Positions 3,495 through 42,226 of a stretch of 64,000 bases of DNA are shown piece by piece. The notes beneath the pieces are model-generated. The model was given only the letters and a program-made list of their open reading frames with translations. It had not been told where the DNA came from and searched no databases. Made by a program: the position numbers and the translations under genes. How positions within the stretch are numbered: position 1 is the stretch's first letter; each line of letters begins with the position of its first letter. Source of the stretch: Planctomycetia bacterium (GTDB lineage: Bacteria > Planctomycetota > Planctomycetia > Pirellulales > UBA1268); NCBI GenBank assembly GCA_014192425.1, contig BJHK01000004.1, positions 124,001 through 188,000 of the forward strand. The letters run 5' to 3'.

Positions 3495-4637
3495 ATGCCC
3501 CCGAAGACGAAACGTTCCCCGAAGGCCGCCGTCGGCACGCTCCCGCCTGTCGACGTCAAGACCCACGGCCTGATCGTCGGCCTGGCCGACGAGGTCGCCA
3601 CGGCGGCGGAGAAACGCCGCGACCCGTGGCTCGACATCCCGACCCGCAGCCTGTCGAACGTCCGCTTCAACAAGGCGCGGAAGATCATCGAGATGGGTGG
3701 GCAGACCAACCGGCGTCAGCTCTTCAACCTCGCCCAGGCGAAGAGCTACATGCAGACGCTGCTCGTGGCCACCGGCTGCAAGCAGCTCATCGACCAGCAG
3801 AAGACGACCAGCATTCGCGGTCTGTATTACCTCCTCAAGCACACCATCGAGGGCACCCGCGAGGAGACGTTCGCCACCCAGGAAGAGTGCGACCCGATCA
3901 TCGAGGATCTGGAAGTCACGCTGGAAAGCCTCCGCGAGGAGCTGCACGTCTACGCCAGCAATCGCGGCGGCATGGTGGGGCCGATCACGCTCATCGACTC
4001 GGGAGACGAGATCGACTGCTCGCGGATGGGCTCGGGCGGCTACTCGATCCCGTCGATCGTCGAGGCCGACATCGTCAAGTTCAAGTCCTGTGACGCGAAG
4101 TTCATCCTCCACGTCGAGAAGGACACCGTGTGGCGCCGGTTCAACGAAGACAAGTTCTGGCGGAAGCACGCCTGCCTGCTCACCCATGGCGGCGGCCAGC
4201 CGCCGCGCGGCGTCCGGCGCATGCTCTATCGGCTCCACAACGAGTTCAAGCTTCCCGTCTACTGCCTGCTCGACAACGACCCGTGGGGCTACTACATCTA
4301 CTCCGTGCTCAAGCAGGGCTCGATCAACCTCGCCTACGAGTCGAAGCGGATGGCGATCCCCGAGGCCCGGTTCCTCGGCATCCGCTCCCGCGACTACGGC
4401 CGCTGCAAGCTCTCCCCGAGCGTGCAGATCGCCCTCAACGACACCGACATCAAGCGGGCCAAGCAGATCGCCGCCTATCCGTGGTTCGCGGGCAAGAAGG
4501 CGTGGCAGAAGGAGATCGAGACGATGCTCGCCAACGGCTTCAAGCTCGAGGTCGAGTCGCTGATCTCCAAGGACATCAGCTACGTCACCGACACCTACAC
4601 CCCCGAACGGCTCGCAGAGGCCGACTGGCTCGACTGA
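3495..4637 (+). CDS. top6A: DNA topoisomerase VI subunit A / Spo11-like protein
   Basis: About 380 residues, the usual size for Top6A. The winged-helix (5Y-CAP) domain carries TTSIRGLYYLLKHT; Tyr111/Tyr112 include the expected DNA-cleaving tyrosine. The Toprim domain supplies Glu208 in HVEKDTVW and the metal-binding triad Asp260-Asn-Asp262 in DNDPWGYYIYS. In a complete enzyme, A and the GHKL ATPase subunit B form an A2B2 type IIB topoisomerase. No B-subunit gene is next to it or anywhere in the window. ATG 3495 is chosen because upstream codons look non-coding. Top6A is sporadic in bacteria, so horizontal origin or a standalone Mini-A-like role is possible; full length and intact active site argue for a working protein. 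Confidence 0.88.
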   Translation: MPPKTKRSPKAAVGTLPPVDVKTHGLIVGLADEVATAAEKRRDPWLDIPTRSLSNVRFNKARKIIEMGGQTNRRQLFNLAQAKSYMQTLLVATGCKQLIDQQKTTSIRGLYYLLKHTIEGTREETFATQEECDPIIEDLEVTLESLREELHVYASNRGGMVGPITLIDSGDEIDCSRMGSGGYSIPSIVEADIVKFKSCDAKFILHVEKDTVWRRFNEDKFWRKHACLLTHGGGQPPRGVRRMLYRLHNEFKLPVYCLLDNDPWGYYIYSVLKQGSINLAYESKRMAIPEARFLGIRSRDYGRCKLSPSVQIALNDTDIKRAKQIAAYPWFAGKKAWQKEIETMLANGFKLEVESLISKDISYVTDTYTPERLAEADWLD

Positions 4638-4673: not shown

Positions 4674-4800
4674 TTGGGCATTCGGAGCCGCAGCCAAGGT
4701 GCGGCTCGAATGCCGGGCGGTCGCACATCCGGGCGACCGCGGCCGCCGCTGATCGGCGGCGGGCGGCCACTCGCAGAGACTGCGAGTGGAGCCGCCAGGG

Positions 4801-5112
4801 TGCCATCATCGCTTGCGCGGAGCCTGGGGTTTGCTTGGCGAGCATGAGTCGAAGCAGATGCCGGCGCCGCTGCCACGGTGCGACGACCGCTTGCGCGGAG
4901 CCGGGCTTCGCCCGGCGACCGTAAGCCGGAGCACACGCCGGGGCACCTGCCACGGTGCGACCACCGCCTGCGCGGAGCCGGGCTTCGCCCCGCGACCGTA
5001 AGCCGGAGCACACGCCGGGGCACCTGCCACGGTGCGACCACCGCTTGCGCGGAGCCGGGCTTCGCCCGGCGACCGTAAGCCGGAGCAGACGCTTTGTCGG
5101 CTGCGACGGCGC
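4801..5112. repeat. Tandem array of four ~77-bp hairpin-containing repeats
   Basis: Three units begin at 4881, 4958 and 5035 with an exact 77-bp period and few differences. A diverged unit starts about 78 bases upstream, near 4803. Each unit contains the stem-loop GCCGGGC-TTC-GCCCGGC and the motif GACCGTAAGCCGGAGC. Open frames on both strands read through the array but only repeat the same low-complexity peptide, so I treat it as non-coding, REP/BIME-like DNA. The rest of the 508-bp gap around it (4638-5145) holds only the top6A terminator. Confidence 0.85.
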
Positions 5113-38033: not shown

Positions 38034-38444
38034 TCAGGAATCATTCGGTTCCGAAGGTTCGTCGTGTTCGTCAAAGCGGCGATCGAACAGGCTGCCGATC
38101 GCCTCTAGGGCGGCCTGGGCATCGGGCCCCGTCGCCTCCACCACCAGCCGTGTGCCCGCCTCGGCCGCGAGCGTCAGCACGTCGAGGATGCTCTTGCCAT
38201 CGACCCGCTGGGCGGCGGCCACCAATTCGATCCGCGACTGCCAGCGCCGCGCCTCGCGGGTGAGCAGGGCCGCGGGTCGGGCGTGCAGCCCGTGCCGGTT
38301 GGAAACGACGACCTCGCGGGAGAGCGTGTCGCCGGTCACCCCGGCCTGATTCAGTGCGGCCTGATTCAGTGCGGCCTGATTCAGTGCGGCCTGATTCAGT
38401 GCTTCTTGGTTCAGTGCTTCTTGGTTCAGTGCTTCTTGGTTCAT
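38034..38444 (-). CDS. ptsH: HPr phosphocarrier with N-terminal pentapeptide-repeat extension
   Basis: 136 residues, of which the last ~100 are a normal HPr. His54 (the His15 equivalent) is in NRHGLHARPAAL. Ser85 in DGKSILDVL matches Ser46 exactly by offset (39). The first 36 residues are MNQEAL followed by near-perfect NQEAL and NQAAL repeats, encoded by seven 15-bp DNA units. HPr passes phosphate from EI to the EIIA-Ntr-like protein at 38453. The upstream ptsN stop is nine bases away. Confidence 0.94.
   Translation of the reverse strand: MNQEALNQEALNQEALNQAALNQAALNQAALNQAGVTGDTLSREVVVSNRHGLHARPAALLTREARRWQSRIELVAAAQRVDGKSILDVLTLAAEAGTRLVVEATGPDAQAALEAIGSLFDRRFDEHDEPSEPNDS
38337..38441 (-). 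repeat. In-frame 15-bp minisatellite inside ptsH
   Basis: Seven tandem 15-bp units encode NQEAL three times, NQAAL three times and NQAGV once. The first three and the next three are identical within each block at DNA level. The unit length is a multiple of three, so copy-number change would keep the frame. Such arrays are prone to slippage. Confidence 0.9.
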
Positions 38445-38452
38445 GGACGGTG

Positions 38453-38929
38453 TCACGAAGCCACGCCGTGGCTGTCCGCCTCCTCGAGCAGCGACTGGAT
38501 GTCGGCCGGACCGTGGGCGGCTTTGAGGAGCCGGCAGAAATGGTCGTCCCGCAACTGCCGCGAAATGTTCTCCAGCGCCCGGAGGTGATCGCCGGGGCGG
38601 TCCGGCGGGGACACGAGCAGGAAGAACAGCTGCACGGGCTCGCCGTCGAGGCTCTCGAAGTCGACCCCCGCGGGGCTGACGGCGACGGTGCCCACGAGCC
38701 GGCTCACGCTCGGGTGCTTGGTGTGAGGTACGGCCACGCCGCGGCCGATGCCGGTGCTGCCGAGGTCCTCGCGCTTCATGATCGCCTTGACGATCCCCTC
38801 CAGGTCGCCCGCCGCGATCTTGCCTGCATCGACGAGCGCCCGGGCCATCTCCCGAATGACGCCCTCCTTGCTGGAGGCATCGATCCGCGAACGGATGGCT
38901 TCGGGGGCGACGAAGTCTGAGAATTTCAT
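38453..38929 (-). CDS. ptsN: PTS EIIA-Ntr-like protein (PtsN)
   Basis: 158 residues. GSTGIGRGVAVPHTKHPSVS contains the phosphorylated histidine (VPHTKH), and FFLLVSPPDRPGDHLRALEN and ISRQLRD complete the mannitol/fructose-like EIIA fold. It is regulatory in most bacteria and affects potassium and nitrogen control. Together with hpf upstream and ptsH/ptsI downstream it mirrors the rpoN-hpf-ptsN-npr arrangement of proteobacteria, here without rpoN. Confidence 0.94.
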   Translation of the reverse strand: MKFSDFVAPEAIRSRIDASSKEGVIREMARALVDAGKIAAGDLEGIVKAIMKREDLGSTGIGRGVAVPHTKHPSVSRLVGTVAVSPAGVDFESLDGEPVQLFFLLVSPPDRPGDHLRALENISRQLRDDHFCRLLKAAHGPADIQSLLEEADSHGVAS

Positions 38930-39016: not shown

Positions 39017-39337
39017 TCAGGAATGCCGGGATGTCTGGACGTGTTTGTGGTCGCGGACCTTCTCCTTGTGCTTCCGCAACTGCTGCTCCAGTTTCTGCAC
39101 CGCCCCGTCCACGCTCCGCCACAACTGCGCCGCGGCCTCGTGGCTGACCATGTCATGGTAGTGCTCGGCGGAGGCGACGATCTCGACGCTCGGCTGGTTC
39201 GAATTCTGCAGGTCCACAGTGACGTTGAGGGCCGTCAGCCGGTCGAAGTACCGCTTCAGCCGCGAGACCTTGGCCACGACCTTCGACTGTGATGCCGGGC
39301 TCAAATGCCCGTGCCGCGAGGAAACGTTGATCTGCAC
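39017..39337 (-). CDS. hpf: Ribosome hibernation promoting factor (HPF/RaiA family)
   Basis: About 106 residues. VQINVSSRHGHLSPASQSKV, LKRYFDRLTALNVTVDLQNS and VDGAVQKLEQQLRKHKEKVR match short HPF proteins, which bind the 30S decoding site and dimerise or silence ribosomes in starvation. The GTG start at 39337 has GGAAAGGA about ten bases upstream; no upstream ATG preserves homology. It lacks the C-terminal dimerisation domain of long HPF. It is the first gene of the PTS/RNase G transcript. Confidence 0.9.
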   Translation of the reverse strand: MQINVSSRHGHLSPASQSKVVAKVSRLKRYFDRLTALNVTVDLQNSNQPSVEIVASAEHYHDMVSHEAAAQLWRSVDGAVQKLEQQLRKHKEKVRDHKHVQTSRHS

Positions 39338-39588
39338 CCGCTTGTCCTTTCCGTCAAAGATCCTGCGGAGGTCCGTCAATGATCCGGGAAGGCCCGGCAC
39401 TGATCCGGGGGAGGCCCCCGGCGAGGATCGACTGCCGATTGCACCGGCGACCGCCACCGGAGGCGGCCCCGGCAATCGAGGCCGCATACCTGAACTGACG
39501 CAGCATATCACCCGGTTCGGGCCGCCGACAAACCGCGGCCGCAATCACCGCGTGCCGTGCGGATTCGAGCCGCTTCCGCCGGTCACGG

Positions 39589-41904: not shown

Positions 41905-41988
41905 GGACAGAGGCCGGGCGGACGCTCCGGCGGGACAGAGGCCGGGCGGACGCTCCGGCGGGACAGAGGCCGGGCGGACGCTCCGGCG
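41905..41988. repeat. Three perfect tandem copies of a 28-bp repeat
   Basis: Units at 41905-41932, 41933-41960 and 41961-41988 are identical, each starting GGACAGAGGCCGGGCGG and ending CTCCGGCG. They lie between divergent genes for the FecR-like protein and the TPR protein and fill part of a 343-bp non-coding gap (41884-42226). No coding sense; may be a minisatellite or protein-binding array. Confidence 0.9.
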
Positions 41989-42226
41989 GCCCACGCGCTC
42001 CCACTTATGAGTGGCGCCGGCGCCGGGATTTCGTGCAAAGCCCGTCCCGCGGCCCGCCCGGGCAAACGCCGGGGTCCGATCCAAGCCCGCGGGGGCTGCG
42101 TAGGATAGTGCGAACCGTTCACGAAGGCCCCCGGGATTCGGCTCCCGCCGGGGCTTGCCTGACATCCTTACTGGGGCGGTCCGCCGCTGCCCTGCCAGCC
42201 GCGGACCGAGGCCAGGGCACGATCCG

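Follow-up and report, generated by a model that had tools for sequence, protein, structure and literature searches.

An in-frame array of seven 15-bp units, likely translated, at the 5' end of a planctomycete HPr gene

The HPr gene and its neighbours

The DNA analysed here, called the window below, is a stretch of 64,000 nucleotides from a bacterium of the Planctomycetia, and all coordinates are positions within it. On its minus strand, the genes for an S30AE family protein, a IIA protein, HPr, Enzyme I and an RNase E/G follow one another in that order, as listed here.

39017 to 39544, minus strand: S30AE (HPF/RaiA) family gene, PF02482; start of the reading frame unrefined
38453 to 38929, minus strand: IIA gene of the PtsN/fructose type, upstream of HPr, PF00359
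38034 to 38444, minus strand: HPr gene, 136 amino acids including the probable tail considered below, stop codon at 38036-38034; PF00381, TIGR01003
36073 to 37812, minus strand: Enzyme I gene, downstream of HPr; PF02896, PF05524, PF00391, TIGR01417
34412 to 36028, minus strand: RNase E/G gene, PF10150

The HPr gene is the sole copy in the 3.98-Mb genome, and the IIA protein scored under the NCBIfam cut-offs for both PtsN and fruA. A profile search of the genome for HPr kinase (PF07475) gave no match, the same search having been positive in just 3 of 14 control genomes.

The core of the protein is that of an ordinary HPr. PF00381 matched residues 42-121 (E 4.7e-26; 91.1 bits, above the cut-off of 23), and TIGR01003 matched with 82.2 bits, above its cut-off of 47.9. 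The GLHARPA and GKSIL stretches of the core are invariant, and H54 and R56 within GLHARPA, which we take to be the active-site His and Arg of HPr, were unchanged across the 30 rows of our alignment. The NPr (PtsO) equivalog PRK10897 scored 47.3 bits, under its cut-off of 119, so that the protein can be called NPr-like by its gene neighbours only. In contrast to the core, the 36-residue tail that precedes it matched no Pfam family at E values up to 10, and a pentapeptide-repeat fold (PF00805) was rejected for it on account of this missing profile match. In each of the 33 matching HPr-like sequences of solved structures, the matched stretch began at query residue 38 at the earliest. A tblastn search for plasmid-borne relatives returned 127 records, all of less than 60% identity and none spanning 80% of the query, among which there was no similar tail. 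Likewise, a limited search of the open-access literature found no repeat-tailed HPr, consistent with the claim made in a preliminary description of this DNA.

The seven-unit array and repeats elsewhere

The tail would be encoded by the following feature, which was identified by reading the sequence and with Tandem Repeats Finder.

38337 to 38441, minus strand: array of seven 15-bp units (7 x 15 bp), encoding (NQEAL)3(NQAAL)3(NQAGV)

The units are, in order, AACCAAGAAGCACTG three times, AATCAGGCCGCACTG three times and AATCAGGCCGGGGTG once. Units 1-3 (NQEAL) are identical to one another, as are units 4-6 (NQAAL); the two blocks agree with each other at 11 of 15 positions, and the decayed unit 7 (NQAGV) agrees with units 4-6 at 12 of 15. 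Such blocks of identical units would fit two rounds of recent copying. The frame of the array runs open, with no stop codon, from an ATG at 38444-38442 into HPr. Tandem Repeats Finder placed the array at 38342-38443 with scores of 126-132, and the lag-match score of the 250 nt preceding the HPr core was 75, the highest value among 300 dinucleotide shuffles being 10. The array is real, and is confirmed at the place where the preliminary description had put it; the seven 15-bp units, the 35 additional residues and the normal HPr core reported there all hold, as judged from the sequence itself and from the PF00381 match.

A 24-base pattern allowing up to 3 mismatches located no further copy of the unit in the 3.98-Mb genome. 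The RNA structure predicted for the leader was unremarkable (z -1.43), with 18 of 200 shuffled sequences folding equally well or better. Third-position G+C was 0.59 in the array, as against 0.84 in the HPr core, a difference that counts against translation of the array, although it was lower in the leads of most congeners also. Among 65 distinct HPr loci the tail array was present in one; the next score, 29, was that of locus L008, at a period of 17 bp, and the one after that was 12. L008 comes from another family of the same order, and its array, whose 17-bp period is not a multiple of 3, lies in the IIA-HPr spacer, upstream of position 1501 of that locus.

Repeats were also observed in other settings. 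In the window, three exact 28-bp units occupy positions 41905-41989, 22 bp ahead of the ATG (41883, minus strand) of a 764-aa reading frame that has no Pfam match, and a 77-bp unit is repeated 3.9 times at 4794-5092, between reading frames that end at 4637 (plus strand) and 5146 (minus strand). A locus of the same family as the window (L105, from genome G067) contains an open frame 180 codons long in which LQAPV/NQAPV pentads recur with a 15-bp period, and constitutes a separate case. In a contig from the Acidobacteriia (L092, around 2001-2072), a 15-bp array is situated where two genes, presumably PilB-like and PilM-like, meet, and one reading of it prefixes the second gene with ESGSV-type repeats.

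We considered whether the unit could derive, by chance insertion, from a mobile or cross-phylum family of DNA repeats having TGAATCAGGC every 15 bp. Comparable tandem 15-mers do occur in contigs from Acidobacteriia, Acetobacteraceae and Sinosporangium, and the loci L092, L093 and L095 share TGAATCAGGC at 15-bp spacing; the three foreign loci were, however, found through a search with the encoded peptide, so that their likeness is in part a product of selection. With up to 1 mismatch allowed, just 2 of the 392 genomes from the phylum contained the TGAATCAGGC pattern, and each of the three foreign genomes had it at a single site. Allowing up to 2 mismatches within the taxonomic family of the window gave 14 matches, which were spread over 10 of 72 genomes and of which 4 fell in the window's own genome; most of these looser matches arose from coinciding codons in open frames that were unrelated and shared no context. 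On these counts the repeat family was rejected; as a source of the array it is largely refuted and scarcely credible.

The translation start and the lead in related genomes

Three possible start codons lie between the IIA stop and the HPr core: a GTG that overlaps the IIA stop (-4), an ATG (+8) and a second GTG (+113). The first two take in the array and the third leaves it out. The two that matter most for the argument are as follows.

38442 to 38444, minus strand: ATG immediately 5' of the array, 8 nt past the IIA stop; favoured start
38337 to 38339, minus strand: GTG forming codon 5 of unit 7, with GLH 16 residues further on; alternative start, coinciding with a start position found in sister genera

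In 17 of 20 HPr loci from congeners, the first possible start fell between -4 and +2 nt relative to the IIA stop, which places 11-24 residues N-terminal to the conserved core. The remaining three were G016 (+7), G001 (+70) and G007 (+13 for a GTG and +70 for an ATG). In two congeners, G019 and G006, there is just one possible ATG, GTG or TTG each, and their leads must accordingly be translated if initiation is standard. The set of 20 leaves out a second HPr locus of bin G017 (G017b, locus L040), which groups at 100/99 with another genus, specifically with G028, and is probably a contaminating contig; no HPr match was present in G010. Since the genus as a rule has starts beside the IIA stop, together with additional residues at the N-terminus, the tail of the window's HPr is likely to be translated from the ATG at 38444-38442.

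A start farther downstream, near the core, at the GTG at 38339-38337 is possible, in which case the array would be an untranslated minisatellite within the IIA-HPr spacer, noncoding and having a nil or mild effect on coupling and on HPr level. The GTG is exactly 16 residues ahead of GLH, and a start at -15 or -16 was available in 13 of the 14 sister-genus loci read (G024, G034, G033, G036, G023, G029, G025, G027, G030, G028, G022, G031 and G032), the exception being G026; a fifteenth locus, G035, was left out because the search pattern missed its HPr. An AGG sits 5 nt upstream of this GTG, where pairing with the anti-Shine-Dalgarno sequence is predicted at -1.9 kcal/mol, slightly stronger than the -0.9 kcal/mol of the ATG; the value for the GTG at -4 is -2.0 kcal/mol. 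All three energies are weak, and secure starts in congeners, for example those of G019 and G005 (-2.2), pair equally weakly, so that Shine-Dalgarno energies cannot choose between the starts in the window. A noncoding array would also have parallels in the L008 spacer and in the 28-bp array ahead of another reading frame in the window. Yet it would set the window apart from the 17 of 20 loci in the genus that start at the IIA stop, and it would leave to chance both the position of the array directly after an in-frame ATG and a period that is a multiple of 3, features expected only if the array is read. We therefore consider an untranslated array unlikely, although it is the principal alternative to a translated tail.

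The leads of congeners were also informative as to constraint. In five close pairs of congeners, the changed codons of the lead were 7 silent and 16 replacement, and those of the core were 67 silent and 16 replacement (Fisher p 1.1e-5). Changes at the first, second and third codon positions numbered 6, 12 and 11 in the lead and 10, 4 and 72 in the core. These counts are for pairs with leads of equal length; two more pairs, in which the leads differ by 3 nt, were left out. The lead of congeners is thus free to vary, without amino-acid constraint. Expansion of such a segment would be tolerable, and a conserved function for it is unlikely, although the absence of amino-acid constraint, taken alone, also fits untranslated DNA.

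The nearest congener by identity is G016 (84.8% over IIA and the HPr core), and a comparison with it bears on the origin of the array. In our tree the fork that groups it with the window's genome, G000, is drawn open, and support for their shared clade was 81/86. The G016 start is an ATG at +7 with GAGGA ahead of it, and SREAV then precedes SQETLSREVVV: the sequence reads ATG AGT CGG GAA GCC GTG AGC CAG GAG ACG CTG, or M-SREAV-SQETL, with a GTG at -16. In the window the sequence is M-(NQEAL)3(NQAAL)3-NQAGV-TGDTL, with its GTG likewise at -16, and the array therefore fills the exact place of the single SREAV of G016. Resemblance between the G016 pentads and the unit is weak: unit A agreed with two G016 15-mers at 9 and 10 of 15 positions, the best of 87 in-frame 15-mers from the G016 core agreeing at 8. 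G016 looks like a one-unit version of the locus, and we infer that the array grew to its seven units from a single one. A change of copy number in frame is plausible on these grounds, with the identical blocks pointing to recent copying and G016 apparently carrying one unit.

AlphaFold2, supplied with the 30-row alignment, predicted a single helix for residues 3-35, with pLDDT of 86-92 over residues 1-30, followed by strands and helices in the order of HPr (mean pLDDT 75, pTM 0.51). The alignment rows were cut at the core and no other row had a tail, so that the predicted helix reflects local sequence only. By this model the 35-residue tail is probably helical. A confidently predicted helix, together with unit blocks that preserve the frame, might be taken to indicate a selected, functional arm whose helix length, set by the number of units, alters contact with Enzyme I, IIA or a partner at the membrane or nucleoid. 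Such an arm would be at odds with the occurrence of the tail in 1 of 65 distinct HPr loci, with the non-triplet period of the next-scoring array (L008) and with the unconstrained leads of congeners, and the structure model was built on no related tail; we regard it as very improbable.

A probably tolerated tail and its relation to known systems

Our preferred explanation, which we think probable, is that the array encodes a translated, slippage-grown and tolerated N-terminal tail on an ordinary HPr belonging to a regulatory-type PTS cluster. As judged from congeners, translation would restart at the ATG just past the IIA stop. The lead precedes the first beta strand and, as the congeners show, is free to vary in the genus; within it, a 15-bp unit would have been duplicated in tandem by slippage or recombination, from about one copy to seven, the frame being kept and the product tolerated. 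The outcome would be an otherwise normal phosphocarrier bearing a tail of 35 residues that is probably helical. The effect of the tail on phosphotransfer or on partners is likely to be small, if there is any, and the altered partner access suggested in the preliminary description found no support in this analysis. A bolder scheme, in which HPr length is switchable, with the ATG and GTG yielding long and short HPr, slippage tuning a helical arm and repeat number adjusting the regulatory PTS, appears to us exceedingly unlikely.

If the tail is translated, the locus would provide an HPr with an N-terminal arm built of repeats, and with it a small natural test of the amount of added protein that a phosphocarrier tolerates before its first strand. 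It would also clearly exemplify how the start of a gene can drift upstream and then expand. Start-codon calls in the genus are uncertain, and in this respect the case serves as a warning. A repeat-tailed HPr by itself opens no long-standing question.

Comparison with known systems places the locus as follows. Enzyme I genes of group R have been placed in Planctomycetes, among others, and organisms of that group are described as being without PTS transporters, some Proteobacteria aside (PMC2405797); a GAF extension has been treated for Enzyme I-Ntr (PMC2937029). The window resembles the NPr (PtsO) and planctomycete regulatory PTS in that genes for a PtsN-like IIA, an S30AE protein and Enzyme I are neighbours of an HPr family gene. 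It differs from that system in the tandem array that its HPr gene carries in frame at the 5' end, and in that HprK was not found here. As in the FruB-type fusion of IIA with HPr, a IIA immediately precedes HPr, and PRK11109 scored 71.8 bits on the HPr part, against a cut-off of 302; unlike that fusion, IIA and HPr are here two separate genes in different frames with a stop codon between them, and the tail is without a family match. The in-frame coding repeats of E. coli TolA can be altered in number by recombination or slippage, and their number differs among strains, with measured effects (PMC3477136). The array described here, if translated, would share with TolA its in-frame coding repeats, whereas its site is N-terminal, it is known from one genome and it has no known effect. 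In E. coli AhpC, a small enzyme changed by an in-frame repeat expansion, the expansion is of a triplet repeat and one added unit changes activity (PMC3477136), whereas the 35 residues here lie outside the folded core. We regard the probably repeat-tailed HPr as a curiosity, not as a new system: in-frame coding tandem repeats are of a known kind, exemplified by TolA and AhpC, and what would be new is HPr as the host gene.
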